Under the pieces are notes generated by a model, which saw only the letters and a list, made by a program, of their open reading frames with translations, ran no database searches and was not told where the DNA came from. Both the position numbers and the translations under genes were made by a program. From the IMG/VR virus record IMGVR_UViG_3300022927_000098, positions 1 through 25,830 of that record: DNA of 25,830 nt; one strand, 5' to 3'. Every line of letters starts with the position of its first letter. Position 1 is the stretch's first letter. The DNA is from a virus. Shown in pieces: positions 4,927-22,819 of this stretch.

Positions 4927-6981
4927 TTGATTACAGTATTAGATATCGAAACCACTTTCACCAAAGACGGTGACCCAACACCTTTTAATCCTGAAAATAA
5001 ATTAGTTAGCATAGGGATTAATGATGAGTACTATTTCTTCTATCACAAAGATATGAAGGATATGAAAAAAATACAAGACAGTAAACAGAGAATACAACAA
5101 ATCTTAAATGCTTCTACTTTAGTAGTAGGACATAATCTAAAGTTTGATATGTCATGGATGTATGAGTTTGGCTTTACTTATAATGGTAAACTTTACGACA
5201 CTATGTTAGCTGAGTATGTTATGAACAGAGGCATTAAGAACAAATCTATATCTTTAAAAGAATCTTGTAAGAGAAGAGGATTAAGTGTTAAGTCTGATAT
5301 CTTAGCGACATACATGGAAAGTGGGTATGGCATTGACGAAATACCTATGGAAAAATTAGAAGAGTATGGTAAGCAAGATGTTATGATTACTAAACAACTC
5401 TATCTTACACAAGTAAGATTGTTCAATCAGCCCGGTAATAATACTTTAAAACCTACTCTTAATTTAATGAATGATTTTCTACGTGTTCTTATTGATATGG
5501 AATGTAATGGAAACTATATTGATTTAACAGAATTAGAAAATGTAGAGAAAGAATTAAACCAAGAGTACTACAGTTTAAAGAATAAGATTAACAGAATTAT
5601 TCAACAAGTTATGGGTGATACCCCTATTAACTTATCATCAACAGAGGACCTATCTAAAGTTATTTATTCTAGAAAGGTTCAAGATAAAAGTACTTGGGCT
5701 ACATTATTTAATATTGGTATTGACAAAAGAAGTCGTAAGCCAAAGAAAAGACCTAGAATATCAGAGAGAGATTTTGAACAACTTGTTTTAAAACATACTG
5801 ACCAAGTGTATAAAACTATAGCTGAGCAATGTAATATTTGTAGTGGTTTAGGGTTTATTAGAAGGATTAAAAAAGACGGCTCTCTTTATAAGTCAGATAA
5901 TAAATGTACTAAATGTTCTGCTCAAGGAATGTTATTTGTAGAGACAGAGGCTCGTGCAGGATTCAATTATAAAACAAGAATGGTTAGCGATGCGTCTCAA
6001 GGTGGATTTAAAACTGACAAAGAAACCTTAACTAAAATTAGTGCCATATCAGAAGGTGCATTAAAAGATTTTGTTGATAGTATTATTCGATACAGTGCGA
6101 TTGAAACATACCTAAATACTTTCCTGACAGGTATCAGAGATAACACAAGAGAGAATAATATCTTACACCCTTCATACAATCAGTATACTACTACAACTGG
6201 TAGGTTATCGTCTTCCAAACCTAACTTCCAGAATATGCCGAGGGGTGATAAGTTTCCTGTGAAACGAATAATTAAATCTCGTTTCGATGGTGGGCAAATT
6301 ATTGAGGTAGACTTTGCCCAATTAGAATTTCGTACTGCTGTTTTCTTGGCTCAAGATAAACAAGGTATGGAAGATATTAAGAATGGGGTTGATGTTCACC
6401 AATACACTGCAGATATCATTGGTTGTTCACGACAGGATGCAAAGGCCCATACATTTAAACCTTTATATGGTGGAACAATGGGCAAGAAAAAAGAAAAGGA
6501 ATACTATGATAAATTTTTAAAGAAGTATAAAGACATTGCTAAGTGGCATGACCAATTACAAGAGAAGGCTTATAAGACAAGTATTGTTAGATTACCAAGT
6601 GGTAGAGAGTATTACTTCCCTAATGTTTATAGAAGTATAGATAGATACACAGGTAAATATATGTATTCTAACGGTACAACAATTAAGAACTATCCTGTAC
6701 AAGGATTTGCAACAGCAGATATTGTTCCTATTGCATGTATTAATGTTTGGGAACTACTACGAGAAAGGAATCTAAAAAGTCTTATCATCAATACAGTTCA
6801 TGACTCTGTTGTTTTAGATGCTCATCCTGATGAGATAGATGAAGTACTTAGTATTATTAAAACTGGTTTTACTAATGTTAAGGATTCCTTGTTACACCGA
6901 TACGACTGTGAGTTAAACGTACCTTTAGACTTTGAAATAAAAAAAGGTAAAAATTGGCTTGACTTATCCACAGAAGTATGA
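4927..6981 (+). CDS. polA: family A DNA polymerase with DnaJ-like zinc-finger insert
   Basis: This 684-residue enzyme replicates the phage genome. The proofreading exonuclease is N-terminal: DIETT (D6, E8), HNLKFD (69-74) and YGKQD (147-151, DEDDy type). Polymerase motifs follow: A, VDFAQLEFR (461-469); B, RQDAKAHTFKPLYGG (502-516), with Phe510 at the E. coli F762 position; C, VHDS (624-627). Between them, C302/C305 (CNICSGLG) and C327/C330 (CTKCSAQG) form a DnaJ-like zinc finger, as recalled for HMO-2011-type phages. The start is TTG, chosen because AGAAAGG lies 7 nt upstream and an intact exonuclease motif I follows at once. The last codons hold the promoter for the next gene. Confidence 0.95.
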   Translation: MITVLDIETTFTKDGDPTPFNPENKLVSIGINDEYYFFYHKDMKDMKKIQDSKQRIQQILNASTLVVGHNLKFDMSWMYEFGFTYNGKLYDTMLAEYVMNRGIKNKSISLKESCKRRGLSVKSDILATYMESGYGIDEIPMEKLEEYGKQDVMITKQLYLTQVRLFNQPGNNTLKPTLNLMNDFLRVLIDMECNGNYIDLTELENVEKELNQEYYSLKNKINRIIQQVMGDTPINLSSTEDLSKVIYSRKVQDKSTWATLFNIGIDKRSRKPKKRPRISERDFEQLVLKHTDQVYKTIAEQCNICSGLGFIRRIKKDGSLYKSDNKCTKCSAQGMLFVETEARAGFNYKTRMVSDASQGGFKTDKETLTKISAISEGALKDFVDSIIRYSAIETYLNTFLTGIRDNTRENNILHPSYNQYTTTTGRLSSSKPNFQNMPRGDKFPVKRIIKSRFDGGQIIEVDFAQLEFRTAVFLAQDKQGMEDIKNGVDVHQYTADIIGCSRQDAKAHTFKPLYGGTMGKKKEKEYYDKFLKKYKDIAKWHDQLQEKAYKTSIVRLPSGREYYFPNVYRSIDRYTGKYMYSNGTTIKNYPVQGFATADIVPIACINVWELLRERNLKSLIINTVHDSVVLDAHPDEIDEVLSIIKTGFTNVKDSLLHRYDCELNVPLDFEIKKGKNWLDLSTEV

Positions 6982-7022: not shown

Positions 7023-7865
7023 ATGACAAACGACTTGACTACAGATATAGATAATTTATCCCCTGAAAAGTTAATGGCTCTGATAGGCCAAGAGACTGAA
7101 TCAGGTGGAGATAGTACCATACTATCAAGATTATCTATTAACTATGACTCTGAAGACGCTGACGGTAACCTTATAAAACGAGGATTATTTAAGGTTGATT
7201 CACAGCAACACGGAGTTATCTATGCTGAAAAGGTATCCTTTAGACCTTTCTTCAATACATTTCAGTATAAAAAATATGATGAAGAGAATGAAGAAAATAA
7301 TTATAAGTCAGTCATGTTTACAAGTTGGACTGATGCAAAGCCTGATACGAATGGTACAGAGGCTTGTGGTAGTATACCTAGGTCTATGCGAGATAACCTT
7401 GATATCGCTGTTAAGATAGAACAAGATAAGATTACATGTTTTAGAAATGTGTTTGGTTTAGTTACTATCAAAGGTAAAACTTCAAAAGGCGAAGATGCGT
7501 CTCTTGTAAATGAACCCGCTTTATATAGAGTAAGGGGAGTTAATTTCCTACCTATTGGCGACCAGTTAAAAAGTCTATCCAAAAGAAATAAGATTATGTT
7601 TAATACTGTCCTAGAGTTTTTTGGTACAGATAAACATACCAATGGTAGTGTAACTTATTTTGTTGCCAAGATAAAAGACTCTAATAAAGACGTTAAGTTC
7701 TCGGAAGAAGACAAGAAAGTATTTAACATGTTTAAAGAACATATTAAAACTGAGAATGATTATGTCAAGAAAGAGTATGCTGAGGCATTAAAGAGAAAAC
7801 ATAAATCATCTACTACGGCAGACGATTTAGATGATGAAATTATTTTACAGGAAATGTCAGCTTGA
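7023..7865 (+). CDS. hypothetical protein, candidate ssDNA-binding protein
   Basis: This encodes 280 residues with no family I can name. Three things suggest a single-strand DNA-binding role: it sits between polymerase and a Cas4/RecB-type nuclease, where many phages encode such a protein; the central part looks beta-rich (KVSFRPFFNTFQYKKY, YRVRGVNFLPIG); and the C-terminus is acidic (DDLDDEIILQEMSA), like the partner-binding tails of SSB and T7 gp2.5. A strong private promoter (6959-6987) and AGGAGAA ribosome site suggest high expression, also expected for an SSB. All of this is inference. Its stop overlaps the next gene's TTG start (TTGA). Confidence 0.75.
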   Translation: MTNDLTTDIDNLSPEKLMALIGQETESGGDSTILSRLSINYDSEDADGNLIKRGLFKVDSQQHGVIYAEKVSFRPFFNTFQYKKYDEENEENNYKSVMFTSWTDAKPDTNGTEACGSIPRSMRDNLDIAVKIEQDKITCFRNVFGLVTIKGKTSKGEDASLVNEPALYRVRGVNFLPIGDQLKSLSKRNKIMFNTVLEFFGTDKHTNGSVTYFVAKIKDSNKDVKFSEEDKKVFNMFKEHIKTENDYVKKEYAEALKRKHKSSTTADDLDDEIILQEMSA

Positions 7866-10954: not shown

Positions 10955-11400
10955 TATTTTTTCACTAAGCTCCCACCGAAGTATAGCCCCACTATTGATG
11001 ACATAAGGTGTGTATCGAGAGGGGTAATCACTACACCTGCAAATGCTCTGTCCATTAATACTTCTTTCTTCTCTATGAGAAACAAAAAACCTGGTTTAAA
11101 TTCTGTCCATGTTAAGATGACAGGAATATCCATAATTACAGGTACTATTTTAGGCCATGCAATAACAAAGAACACAGCCGTTAAAGCTATGATTCTTCTA
11201 GTCCATTGGAATCCTTTGTTCTCATAAGTCCTTGCACTCTCAACGGCTTTCATTTGAAATTCTGCCCGTGCTAATAACATCTTTTGTTCGTCTTGTTTTG
11301 CCTTAATGCTTTGCCCCCATATAGACATTACTCCACCGAGTAAGCTAGAGCCTAGCATTGTAATCATTTCTACTGGTAATCCCCCTAACATATTATTCAT
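10954..11400 (-). CDS. three-helix membrane protein, holin-like
   Basis: This encodes 148 residues. Hydrophobic segments are at about 10-29 (MITMLGSSLLGGVMSIWG), 69-90 (IIALTAVFFVIAWPKIVPVI) and near the C-terminus (SSIVGLYFGGSLV). A charged, helical linker lies between the first two. The pattern, with a TRRIIAL start to the central helix, resembles the 3TM holins known from phages and gene-transfer agents. Placed directly upstream of the transglycosylase-like gene, it would let that enzyme reach the wall. It overlaps the preceding gene by 8 nt. Confidence 0.65.
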   Translation of the reverse strand: MNNMLGGLPVEMITMLGSSLLGGVMSIWGQSIKAKQDEQKMLLARAEFQMKAVESARTYENKGFQWTRRIIALTAVFFVIAWPKIVPVIMDIPVILTWTEFKPGFLFLIEKKEVLMDRAFAGVVITPLDTHLMSSIVGLYFGGSLVKK

Positions 11401-14400
11401 CCCCCACTATGCCGTTCTTTTCGGCTTGTTCATATATGTCCATTTCTTGTTCTGTTATTCCACCTTTAGACATCTTATCAAAGAAGTCTTGTTGCATACC
11501 ACTTAATTGTCTCTTGATAGCATCGTGTAATTCTTTAGGATTCTTAAATCCTTTTTCTTCTGCTAGGTCATACATCCATTGTTGCCACGCTTGACCTATA
11601 TCACCTTGAAATTTTATAAAAGATTCTGCCATTAGTCTTGCTATATCGCTTTTACCCATAGACTCTTTTCCCATTTGTTGTTTCATCATGTAGGTAAATG
11701 TCATATACTTAGATTCTTTTAAACTTCTCATAGCCAACCATTTTCTAGCCCACCAATCTTCCTCATCTCTTTTGTAGTTGTCTACAGAATTTTTAATATA
11801 AAAAGGATTATCTTTACCTTGATACCAAGATTCAATCCAACCATGGTAAGATGTCGGTGTAACTTTTTTCCATGCATCTCTTACTTTAGATGGGGGAATA
11901 GGTGTTATGTCTAATAAAGGTTCACCTGTTAATTGCTCACCTAGTTTGTAATTAAGATAGTGTTTAGATAGTTCTAATATGCCCGATGCTGCATTAAAAG
12001 AAAACTCTAAACTAGGAAAAGTTATAAGTTCTGTTGGGTCTGTAGTTGGTGCCTGTAAAGAATTACTCATATCAGCATTTAGTACAGTAGAAGGACCACC
12101 AAAGAAGAATACATCCGGTAATCCCCATTTAATTAATAGGTCACTTAGGGTACTCATGTTTGTTAATCCTGTAGCATTTAATCCTTTAACTAAAGCATCA
12201 ATAAACGTAACTCCCACAACACCTTTTAGTCCACCAAATATAGCTTGACTTGCAACAAAGTTTGCTAATTGTGTTGTTTGTCCTTTAGGTATGGGGATAG
12301 GTAGTTTTTGTCTACCAATAGTTAATTGTTTAAACTCTGCCTTTTGAATAGCCTCTACCATTTGTGCATACCAATTGTGAGCATAAGTTTTGAACAATCC
12401 TGCTGGTCTAGATATCGCACCTGCCATACTGTAGATAAGAGGTCTTTGAGATGCGTGATATTCCACCATTAATTTATTTGCAAGATAAGGTGCTTGTTTA
12501 ATTACAAACTCTTTACTATATCCTAATGATAACATATGTTCACCGACTGTATTAACTGCTTGTAGTCGTGTAAATCTTTCCATAAATCCTGCAGGAACAG
12601 TACCTTTAACAGTACCCCATATCTTTTTACCCAATCCTTTAGGATTAATTTTCCCTTTAGAGTAATAAGTTTCCCCAAGATATTCTTTCAACATAGCCTC
12701 TGTAATAACGCCCTGTCTAACTGCAGATTTATTTAAAGCAATGTTAAACTCTGTAGGTTTAAATGTACGCATCATCCCTAAAGCAACAGAGTAGTAAGCG
12801 TGGGCAGTAGCATCAATCATATTACTACCTTTTATTTCTGCTGACATTCCTGCTAACTTTTGAGGCAACATTTGAAGAGGTTGTATTCCCTGTAACATTA
12901 AGAATCTAGGATTCAGTGCTAACAAGAACCAAGTATTAGCCAAGTTTGCGGATTTAATATACCATTTACTTATAGCAGATTCTAGCTGAGACCCTATTGG
13001 ACTTCCTCTCATTTGTTTTACAAGTTCATTAATAGGTAATCCTGTAGCATTTTTTCTTACAGTTTCTGCTAATTGGAAATCAGTAGGGTAAATATCCGCT
13101 ATTGTTTTTTGCCCTCTAATCCCTACATTATTGGATATAGGTGTTTTATAAAATGTTGTAAAGTCATTTGCTAACTTCATTCTAAATGCACTTTGAATAC
13201 CACCATTGATATACATAGTGATTGCTTTTTCAAAATCTTGTAATCGTTTTCTAGAACTTCCATATGTTCCCAAATATCCTTCAACAACCTTTCCTTTTCT
13301 AGTCATCTTACGGATATTGAATCCTTTTTCTCTGTATATATTAGTAACTAATTTATCAATAGCATCAATTGTTTTTTGATTTGTTTTATTTCTATTAGCC
13401 AGTTGCATAATGTCTTGAAACATTTCTGCAGAATAGTCTTTAACTTCGCTTACAGTTTTACTACGGACATTAATAGTTAATTCAGGATTATCTTTCATTA
13501 AGTCGTCTTTAATTCTGTTAGCTTGTTTTATATTATCTGCACCATATACGCCAACCAAATCCCCTTTACTAGTGTTTACAAATACTTTATAGTCACCTAA
13601 GTATATTTGTGGGAAATAGTTTGGTCTTTTATTTATTTTAGAAACATTCTTTCCGCCATAGTTAATAGCAAAATCATTATATATTTTTTGTATTCCATCA
13701 AAAGATTTTTGAATATCTTTCATGGCTACAATACCTTCTTGTGATAAGCCAAATGTACCTACATATCCTGGTGTAGCTTCACCTGTTTTATTATCAAACC
13801 TATCATCTTTTAGTCTTTCTTCTTTGTTTAATTTTCTATATAGAGTATACTCATCATTTAAAGTCTTCATTGTTTCAACTACTTTTAGTTGTTCATTTGT
13901 TGATAATCTTTTCCAACGAACTAACGCACCACCTTCGGATGGTGTAAGACTTGAATAACGCATTGGATTAAATCCCGATACCTTTTCTATCTTAGATGTT
14001 TGAAACGCTTTAGGATTTTCTAAAAATAATTGAGTCATGTAATTGACTTCCATAACATACTTACTTACTAAATCCACTCCATATTTTGCTACAGGATAAT
14101 CACCTAAAAACTTTGCAGGTAATGCCTGTCTTCTTCCACCTTTTGTAAAGAGATTCATAGCAGTTTCCCATAAAGTATCTGCCTTTATAGGTGTCATCTT
14201 TTTTGTATTAGCTACAGGGATAGTTATATTTTCTTCTACTATTTCATATTTACCTTCAGCATTTTTCTTCTTTCTATTTCTTGTAATTTCTTTACCACCA
14301 ACTAATACTAACTTAGCTTCTGTTGGTGTTAGTGATGCAACCATATCAAAGTCTCTCATAAACTTTGTAGAGAATAGTCCGTGGTCTCTTATGACAGCAC

Positions 14401-15529
14401 TAATACTTTCCATATCATCTTTTAATTTTCCTTTTTGAGAATTTAAAGAGTTTATTTCTGTACTAATATTTTTTATTTGTGTATCATATTCGTTTTTCTT
14501 TTCTTCACTTTTTGCTCTTTCTTTTTTTGCAGTGATACTGTTTTGTTGTACACTTAAATCCCCAACTTTCTTTTCGTATAAATTATATTGGTCAATAATT
14601 GCCGCTAGAGATTTCTCAGTATTGCTTATAGCTTTTTCTGCTTCTCTTATATTCTTTTGTGTTGTTAAAAATTCTTTTGTTTTATTACCAAAGTTTTCAA
14701 CAACAGTATCTATTTTACTTTGTGCTGTTAATTTAGGTCCTACTAAACCTAGAACAGCAAATGTTGTAGCATTGGCAATTCTTTCTTCTGCATTTTCTGC
14801 AGGTCCTGAAGCACCCATTAAAGCCATACCTGTTAATCTTGTAGGTATGCCAAACATATTTAAGCCTTGTAATAGTTTACCACTTAGCCCACCTTCTACA
14901 CCTGCAAGTCCTACTCTTTTTGCATATTCAAAACCTGTTTCGCCTTCTTTCTTTTCAGATTCTAATAACATATTCATACCTGCAAATCCACCAACAGGAC
15001 CGCCTGTTACTACTGCGGGTGCGTATAGAGCAATTGTTCCTGGTGTTTGTGCTAATCCTTGAATAACAGATTGTGTAAATCCTGTACCTGCTTTCTTTTT
15101 AGCTTCCACCATTTGTGCTTCGTCTTTTTCTTGTTGGTCTTTATGGAAGTCATACCATGATGAAAGCATAGCTTTAAATCTGCCACCCTCTTCTTTGGGT
15201 GCATCTTTTAGTCTAGCTTGTTTTTGTTCTTCTGCTGTTAAAAATAATCCGGGGATATTTGCAAAGGCTTGTTGTGCTGTAGATTCATAGGCGTTCCATC
15301 CTGATTCGATGCCATACCTATACATGTTATACACTCGAGAACCAAGTGTAGTAGATTTATCAGTTATTGATTCACCAATACCAATAGATTCATCATCAAG
15401 TTCTTTATCTTGATTGTCTTCTTTTTGTAGAGTTTTATACTTATCCTCTATTAATTTTTGTATTTCTTCCTTTGGCATATCGTCAGGAAATTTAACGACT
15501 ATACCATCGGGCATCCTTATATTAGGCAT
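11393..15529 (-). CDS. very large virion protein, probable internal ejection protein
   Basis: This encodes 1378 residues, the largest product in the window and close in size to T7 gp16 (about 1318). The N-terminus MPNIRMPDGIVVKFPDDMP, with a following EEIQKLIEDKY helix, is a short module often found at the start of large phage internal proteins. Glycine/alanine-rich hydrophobic stretches lie at about 155-185 and 205-265, and a long coiled coil spans about 285-378. The rest is mixed, with membrane-like segments in the last third. I see no transglycosylase or protease motif. Position upstream of the lysis genes and downstream of unknown virion genes fits an internal core or DNA-ejection protein. 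Ribosome site GGAGATACA. Confidence 0.75.
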   Translation of the reverse strand: MPNIRMPDGIVVKFPDDMPKEEIQKLIEDKYKTLQKEDNQDKELDDESIGIGESITDKSTTLGSRVYNMYRYGIESGWNAYESTAQQAFANIPGLFLTAEEQKQARLKDAPKEEGGRFKAMLSSWYDFHKDQQEKDEAQMVEAKKKAGTGFTQSVIQGLAQTPGTIALYAPAVVTGGPVGGFAGMNMLLESEKKEGETGFEYAKRVGLAGVEGGLSGKLLQGLNMFGIPTRLTGMALMGASGPAENAEERIANATTFAVLGLVGPKLTAQSKIDTVVENFGNKTKEFLTTQKNIREAEKAISNTEKSLAAIIDQYNLYEKKVGDLSVQQNSITAKKERAKSEEKKNEYDTQIKNISTEINSLNSQKGKLKDDMESISAVIRDHGLFSTKFMRDFDMVASLTPTEAKLVLVGGKEITRNRKKKNAEGKYEIVEENITIPVANTKKMTPIKADTLWETAMNLFTKGGRRQALPAKFLGDYPVAKYGVDLVSKYVMEVNYMTQLFLENPKAFQTSKIEKVSGFNPMRYSSLTPSEGGALVRWKRLSTNEQLKVVETMKTLNDEYTLYRKLNKEERLKDDRFDNKTGEATPGYVGTFGLSQEGIVAMKDIQKSFDGIQKIYNDFAINYGGKNVSKINKRPNYFPQIYLGDYKVFVNTSKGDLVGVYGADNIKQANRIKDDLMKDNPELTINVRSKTVSEVKDYSAEMFQDIMQLANRNKTNQKTIDAIDKLVTNIYREKGFNIRKMTRKGKVVEGYLGTYGSSRKRLQDFEKAITMYINGGIQSAFRMKLANDFTTFYKTPISNNVGIRGQKTIADIYPTDFQLAETVRKNATGLPINELVKQMRGSPIGSQLESAISKWYIKSANLANTWFLLALNPRFLMLQGIQPLQMLPQKLAGMSAEIKGSNMIDATAHAYYSVALGMMRTFKPTEFNIALNKSAVRQGVITEAMLKEYLGETYYSKGKINPKGLGKKIWGTVKGTVPAGFMERFTRLQAVNTVGEHMLSLGYSKEFVIKQAPYLANKLMVEYHASQRPLIYSMAGAISRPAGLFKTYAHNWYAQMVEAIQKAEFKQLTIGRQKLPIPIPKGQTTQLANFVASQAIFGGLKGVVGVTFIDALVKGLNATGLTNMSTLSDLLIKWGLPDVFFFGGPSTVLNADMSNSLQAPTTDPTELITFPSLEFSFNAASGILELSKHYLNYKLGEQLTGEPLLDITPIPPSKVRDAWKKVTPTSYHGWIESWYQGKDNPFYIKNSVDNYKRDEEDWWARKWLAMRSLKESKYMTFTYMMKQQMGKESMGKSDIARLMAESFIKFQGDIGQAWQQWMYDLAEEKGFKNPKELHDAIKRQLSGMQQDFFDKMSKGGITEQEMDIYEQAEKNGIVGDE

Positions 15530-21830: not shown

Positions 21831-22115
21831 TTAATTAGGTTTTGTTGGGAATACGACTGCTTCGACTTGTTCAACAGTAGTTAATCCATTGGTTATATCT
21901 CTCAGTTGAGTTCTATAAGTTTCCCAAGCAGTCTTATCTGCAATAGGACTGTCAGGTAAAACTACCCAATCTGTTTCTGCTAGTAGTTGATTTCTTTTTG
22001 CTCTTAAAATTTGCATATTAAAATTATAAGAATATTCTGCTGTATAAGTTGAATTTATTTCTGCAATTTCTGCATCTGTTAAATTTATTTCTATTCCATT
22101 TACATATTTAATCAT
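21831..22115 (-). CDS. tail-fibre assembly chaperone-like protein
   Basis: This encodes 94 residues. The motif RAKRNQLLAETDWVVLPDSP, followed by TAWETYRTQLRDITNGL, is the hallmark of phage tail assembly chaperone-type proteins (Phage_tail_APC / Tfa-like C-terminal region). These proteins usually lie just downstream of a fibre gene and aid its folding, exactly the arrangement here with four fibre genes upstream. GGAG precedes the ATG, which overlaps the stop of the preceding gene. Confidence 0.8.
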   Translation of the reverse strand: MIKYVNGIEINLTDAEIAEINSTYTAEYSYNFNMQILRAKRNQLLAETDWVVLPDSPIADKTAWETYRTQLRDITNGLTTVEQVEAVVFPTKPN

Positions 22116-22819
22116 TATTTAACTCCATACACTGATAGTATGGCTCCAGCTTTTACTCCTGTTTCAGGACTTCCAGCATTACTTACTATTGTAAATCTAA
22201 TTCCTGAAATAGCAGAGGTTGTTTGAATATTACCTGTTGTTATAGTGCTGTAATTATAAGTATTGGAAACTGCTCCTCCAGTTATAACTGACGTAAAACA
22301 ACTATATGATTTCCAAGAACTTGTTGAATGTGGTTGCTCTAGTGTAAGCATCAAACCATTACTTTTATCTGTATTTGCTCCTAATATTGCTATAAGATTT
22401 ATATCTCCTGTTGAACCAGCAGAATCATAGCCTGTTTCATATCCAATAGCACCTCCAGCACCTGAAGCATTATGATATGCTTGAGTAAAACAAGATGTTT
22501 TAGCTATATTATAATTTGCACCAACATCAGTAGAAACATTAAATTTTAAATTTGCATTATCTGTTGTAGTACCACTACCTTTCCAATTACTAAAATAAAA
22601 ATGAAGTTTTTTATAATCAGAACTGAATATATTAGGGGAACCACTTGATGTAAAACTAACATATGTTGCATCAGATGTTAAAACTGTTTCTGTAATTTTT
22701 ACATAATCACTCGCACCACTCACAGTACCAGTGAAGGCATAGTTAGAAGCTAAGTCTAGCTTTGTGTTATCCACTGCATCATCAGTAATGGAAGGTGTTA
22801 TAATCCGAGTTATTGCCAT
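22115..22819 (-). CDS. tail fibre / receptor-binding-type protein
   Basis: This encodes 234 residues. The N-terminus MAITRIITPSITDDAVDNTK is a short anchoring tag common in phage fibres of marine origin. The rest is Thr/Ser/Asn/Gly-rich beta structure with low charge, ending AGAILSVYGVK, typical of fibre tips. Its ribosome site (AGGAG) is formed by the last codons of the preceding C1q-like gene. It is the last fibre gene before the two assembly chaperones. Role: binding host surface or capping the fibre set, inferred from composition and position. Confidence 0.75.
   Translation of the reverse strand: MAITRIITPSITDDAVDNTKLDLASNYAFTGTVSGASDYVKITETVLTSDATYVSFTSSGSPNIFSSDYKKLHFYFSNWKGSGTTTDNANLKFNVSTDVGANYNIAKTSCFTQAYHNASGAGGAIGYETGYDSAGSTGDINLIAILGANTDKSNGLMLTLEQPHSTSSWKSYSCFTSVITGGAVSNTYNYSTITTGNIQTTSAISGIRFTIVSNAGSPETGVKAGAILSVYGVK

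Follow-up and report, generated by a model that had tools for sequence, protein, structure and literature searches.

Background

Phages related to Puniceispirillum phage HMO-2011, which reportedly dominate and occur widely across the oceans (PMC9038755), possess a DNA polymerase whose exonuclease and polymerase domains flank a partial copy of the DnaJ central domain, in which two CXXCXGXG motifs are present (PMC6918029, PMC9038755). This partial DnaJ domain serves as a group criterion, while assignment of a phage to the HMO-2011 type is based on the DNA polymerase, the capsid and the large terminase jointly (PMC9038755). For the polymerase gene of HMO-2011, the GenBank entry of this phage already gives PF00684. 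The finger has so far been employed as an identifying mark, and how HMO-2011-type polymerases retain DNA is undescribed in the literature that we found. An earlier note on the DNA analysed here had regarded the function of the finger as undescribed, and our literature search likewise turned up no experiment on it, be it a zinc, DNA-binding or processivity measurement.

A second system for comparison is the T7 DNA polymerase, a phage family A replicase whose thioredoxin-binding domain is likewise a thumb insert with exposed basic residues. The processivity of this enzyme increases more than 100-fold with thioredoxin (PMC3997047), and molecular dynamics work describes the T7 thumb insert as clamping DNA via basic residues on the backbone (PMC5984650). 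Within family A, insertions in the thumb are, furthermore, a recurrent means of binding DNA or processivity factors (PMC7699545).

The DNA analysed here (the window) is a 25,830-base virus record representing a genome fragment, and it encodes a further member of the published architecture. Since this architecture is a known hallmark of HMO-2011-type marine phages it is not new in itself; what is new is the predicted placement of the finger at the thumb tip, distinct from the T7 insertion site, the conservation of its cysteines to the level of catalytic residues, and the constantly basic hairpin between them. Together, these features make a role in processivity directly testable.

Domain organisation of the polymerase

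The polymerase gene (4927-6981, + strand, as are all polymerase features below) begins with a TTG start codon and encodes 684 amino acids. Pfam matches to PF00476 (179 bits, residues 357-678) and PF01612 (34.5 bits, residues 20-159), both above cut-off, bear out the assignment to DNA polymerase family A made in the earlier note and add a proofreading domain, for which the exonuclease D/E/D/D and polymerase D/D residues are in place. The 3'-5' exonuclease domain (residues 1-165; 4927-5421) carries D6, E8, D74 and D151, and the palm and fingers (residues 411-684; 6157-6978) carry the catalytic D462 and D626; all six are invariant in every locus where they are present. In motif C, HDS replaces the canonical HDE, with serine at residue 627 (6805-6807) in all 416 loci that cover this position.

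The closest deposited polymerases are those of Pelagibacter phage HTVC033P (52%) and HMO-2011 (41%), followed by Roseobacter phages CRP-1, -2, -3 and their kin. The link to HMO-2011-type phages made in the earlier note is borne out, as this is the group for which the architecture was published. HMO-2011, HTVC033P, CRP-1, -2, -3 and others share an identical domain architecture with the window's polymerase, whose two-motif partial DnaJ domain also lies amid exonuclease and polymerase domains. There is no difference in kind; the identity to the nearest deposited sequence is 52%, and the second motif is degenerate in the window's polymerase. In Vibrio phages ICP2_2013_A_Haiti and VP41s3 and in Alcaligenes phage QDWS535 (loci L255 2896-4989, L089 1724-4054 and L267 380-2295), related polymerases are split into separately annotated N- and C-terminal genes.

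Motifs and conservation of the zinc finger

The four finger cysteines (302, 305, 327 and 330) had been described as lying in two DnaJ-like motifs, and this description is confirmed. The first knuckle, CNICSGLG (residues 302-309; 5830-5853), and the second, CTKCSAQG (residues 327-334; 5905-5928), are separated by the basic hairpin FIRRIKKDGSLYKSDNK (residues 310-326; 5854-5904). As the codon of C302 opens at base 5830 and that of G334 closes at 5928, the interval 5830-5935 spans both motifs. The second motif takes the form CxxCxAxG, with Ala332 in place of the inner glycine of DnaJ, which is a common variant within the HMO-2011-type group. PF00684, the DnaJ central domain, matches residues 299-337 with 18.5 bits in the whole protein and 24.0 bits in the finger alone, both short of the gathering cut-off of 32.7 bits. 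All 73 members of a representative alignment, in which identity to the window's polymerase extends down to ~39%, nevertheless match this profile individually at E<=0.1 (best 9.9e-9).

Seven finger positions, C302, C305, G307, G309, C327, C330 and G334, are invariant in the 73 representatives, among which the other five cysteines of the protein (114, 193, 500, 604 and 661) vary. When this was extended to 431 loci (386 distinct sequences), the four cysteines were found intact, the lone exception being truncated by a contig end: C302, C305 and G307 are kept wherever the residue is present, and C327, C330 and G334 in 431 of 431 loci. The finger cysteines are as constant as the catalytic aspartates. 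Loss of cysteines in close relatives, named in the earlier note as evidence that would speak against a finger, was encountered neither among viral contigs searched with six HMO-2011-type polymerases nor among GTDB genomes searched with the alignment. Invariance across 431 loci also rules out a chance motif.

The glycines are less strictly retained. At residue 309, eight loci have A, C or K; residue 332 may be G, A, K, T or S; and one locus (L257) has lost motif glycines with all four cysteines retained. As some motif glycines tolerate change while the cysteines do not, the metal ligands appear to be the main selected feature. The spacing of the CxxC pairs depends on the branch, at either 21 or 33-34 residues.

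Predicted fold of the finger

Models, profile matches and fold matches delimit the finger proper to residues 291-343 (5797-5955). The whole-protein AlphaFold2 model, built without DNA and without metal, has a mean pLDDT of 88.6, and ten-residue blocks of the finger region range from 82 to 94. The order of elements in this model (strand 295-301, knuckle, strand 310-314, strand 320-326, knuckle, strand 335-343) fits the arrangement expected for two CxxC knuckles facing one metal. A model holding the cysteines apart would have counted against the original proposal; instead, each of the two knuckles caps a hairpin in the model, an arrangement also known from DnaJ.

The best solved match to the finger profile is the Cys-rich domain of E. 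coli DnaJ (1exk, motifs 2-3, E 8.9e-6), followed by human DNAJA3 and by weaker matches to Q antiterminators and anti-TRAP. Motifs 2 and 3 of DnaJ jointly bind one of its two zincs. A finger-only model (pLDDT 81.7) returned DnaJA2, anti-TRAP and UvrA as top fold neighbours, with a Foldseek probability of 0.98 for 7zhs and a superposition of UvrA chains at ~2 Å over ~35 residues, although the scores of so small a domain remain low on an absolute scale, with a top Z of 4.2 and a Foldseek E of 0.33. A fold search with the whole model added little on the finger, as its list was filled by family A polymerases. Profile and fold similarity hence point to a DnaJ-type fold with a single site, and the finger is predicted to be a single-zinc half-module as opposed to a complete DnaJ domain.

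What the finger shares with the DnaJ central domain is the equivalent of PF00684 motifs 2-3, namely the CxxCxGxG knuckles and the intervening hairpin. In contrast to DnaJ, the window's polymerase and its relatives possess two motifs and not four, so that the four-motif, two-zinc architecture is absent and one zinc is predicted; there is, moreover, no J domain, the hairpin is basic and the setting is a polymerase. Small DnaJ-like two-knuckle zinc folds are likewise found in UvrA, the Q antiterminator and anti-TRAP, which also act in nucleic-acid processes but are unrelated host proteins with unrelated functions. These comparisons bear on the suggestion of a chaperone contact, in which the finger would bring in DnaK or proteins of host replication in the manner of DnaJ during lambda replication. 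PMC9038755 cites this lambda role of DnaJ when discussing the domain, and the DnaJ-like sequence and fold would agree with such a contact. However, a Pfam scan of the polymerase yielded no J domain, there is one zinc site where DnaJ has two, and UvrA, Q antiterminators, anti-TRAP and BSD2 use the same small fold for unrelated tasks. Given the missing J domain and the single zinc site, we consider a chaperone contact of this kind highly improbable.

Position on the thumb

The finger had been located between exonuclease and palm, which is right and can be sharpened. When aligned by profile to E. coli Pol I (E 2e-43), the polymerase shows an insert of residues 251-360 (5677-6006), flanked by the INLSS helix and GGFKTDKETL. 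This insert falls opposite a short E. coli loop (residues ~594-604) that connects the NLSSTKQL helix to GGAPSTSEEV. As this E. coli loop forms the thumb tip, the alignment places the finger in the thumb-tip loop.

Automatic alignments with T7 misplace the thioredoxin loop, for which reason the FNPSS/FNLSS/INLSS anchors were read directly. The T7 thioredoxin-binding loop precedes FNPSS (334), whereas the finger insert follows the matching INLSS (234). The two insertions flank one short helix on opposite sides; they would be neighbours in space, and their positions indicate that they are independent. Homology of the insert to the T7 loop is ruled out by the same anchors; in addition, the two share no sequence relation, and there is no evidence of a thioredoxin partner for the finger. 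The thioredoxin-like analogy drawn in the earlier note thus stands as far as a basic thumb-tip insert is concerned, but not for the site of insertion.

A basic hairpin and its possible role in holding DNA

The thumb-tip insert is the sole strongly basic part of the polymerase. Its net charge averages +8.4, whereas the exonuclease domain averages -11.2 and the palm and fingers +0.9. Between the knuckles, the hairpin carries a net charge of +3 to +11 in each of the 73 representatives, at least 90% of which have arginine or lysine at residues 313 and 315. Since the alignment places the finger at the thumb tip and its hairpin is basic in every representative, a role in holding DNA suggests itself. 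We consider it somewhat more likely than not that the finger is a thumb extension, stiffened by zinc, which holds on to the duplex behind the active site and thereby increases processivity. One zinc, held by both CxxC knuckles, would stiffen a hairpin that lengthens the thumb and runs along the primer-template duplex. The arginine and lysine residues of this hairpin would hold the nascent duplex by its backbone. Such a grip could raise processivity without a separate clamp, comparable to the thioredoxin-loaded T7 loop albeit from a different insertion site.

An internal processivity device is plausible because a Pfam scan of 18 left-arm proteins identified no clamp, clamp loader or thioredoxin among them, although such genes could lie outside the fragment that makes up the window. 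The further-reaching proposal, that the thumb tip contains a self-sufficient, zinc-stabilised processivity clamp that requires no accessory protein and sits at a site other than that of T7, is put forward tentatively and with rather less confidence than the grip as such. If true, processivity would have been solved independently in a phage group that ranks among the most abundant in the sea, and an autonomous clamp of this kind might be graftable onto Klenow- or Taq-type enzymes. The T7/T3 loop has reportedly been transferred to enzymes of these types (Bedford 1997 and Davidson 2003, cited in PMC5984650).

The main rival to DNA gripping is docking, as a basic charge at the thumb tip is equally suited to protein contacts. 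The finger would then bind the acidic tail of a partner and not DNA, like the basic loops of the T7 thumb insert, the candidate partners being the product of the downstream gene (7023-7865, + strand), the helicase, the primase or a host protein. A precedent is offered by T7, in which helicase, ssDNA-binding protein and thioredoxin reportedly all bind by way of a thumb loop (Hamdan 2005, cited in PMC3997047). The product of the downstream gene has an acidic C-terminal tail, with a charge over the last 20 residues of -10 in HMO-2011 and -8 in CRP-3, but this acidity is uneven within the group, being weaker in CRP-738 (-4) and HTVC033P (-3). Furthermore, the product of 7023-7865 belongs to no recognised family and has no solved relative, while the tails of the helicases are approximately neutral. 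We therefore regard docking as the less probable of the two, at perhaps one chance in a few.

A different question is whether the finger makes any contact of its own, as zinc may simply stabilise a long thumb-tip insert that was inherited from a polymerase already bearing an older insert in that loop. Polymerases of the ICP2 and KBC54 types do possess other, zinc-free inserts at the loop of the finger, as this would lead one to expect. On the other hand, polymerases of the StenR_269 and Vibrio 1.209.O types manage without any insert there, and it is not only the cysteines but also the basic hairpin that is conserved. A purely structural role thus seems improbable to us, more so than docking, and the duplex grip continues to be our preferred reading.

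Origin of the finger

A query consisting of the insert alone matched only 12 records at E<=1, all of the HMO-2011 type, among 50,697 phage records. Queries with the StenR_269 and Vibrio 1.209.O polymerases retrieved one relative each, in which the finger is absent. In a palm-domain tree the finger-bearing polymerases cluster, with the finger-less StenR/Vib1209 group nearby at weak support, and three changes are needed to account for the distribution of the finger. It may have arisen once or repeatedly, and the zinc-free insert that ICP2/KBC54-type polymerases carry may have been its precursor.

Genomic surroundings

The left arm of the window contains a primase-like gene (1570), a DnaB-type helicase (3658), the polymerase, the gene at 7023 and a Cas4-type exonuclease (7862). 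The gene at 7023-7865 is a conserved neighbour on the 3' side of the polymerase, and its acidic C-terminal tail, also present in HMO-2011 and CRP-3, would suit an ssDNA-binding protein. Upstream, an 82-aa protein (1010-1258, + strand) has two CxxCxGxG motifs of its own, CTECEGLG and CPVCEGHG. Its matches to PF00684 (18.7 bits) and anti-TRAP (18.0 bits) are below threshold, and deposited phages yielded weak partial matches only; judged by these motifs, it is a putative second, free-standing DnaJ-like finger close to the replication genes.

The largest protein on the virion side (11393-15529, - strand, 1378 aa) had no match in the 50,697 phage records, while the protein encoded at 22115-22819 resembles those of pelagiphages HTVC019P, HTVC034P and HTVC010P. 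Judged by these two observations, an HMO-2011-type replication module may be combined in this genome with a structural module unrelated to it. Finally, a 64%-identical polymerase with the finger (L256, 1-1148) is located on an 18.4 kb contig labelled "uncultured Alphaproteobacteria bacterium AG-899-M17", which provides a hint to the host group of this subgroup.
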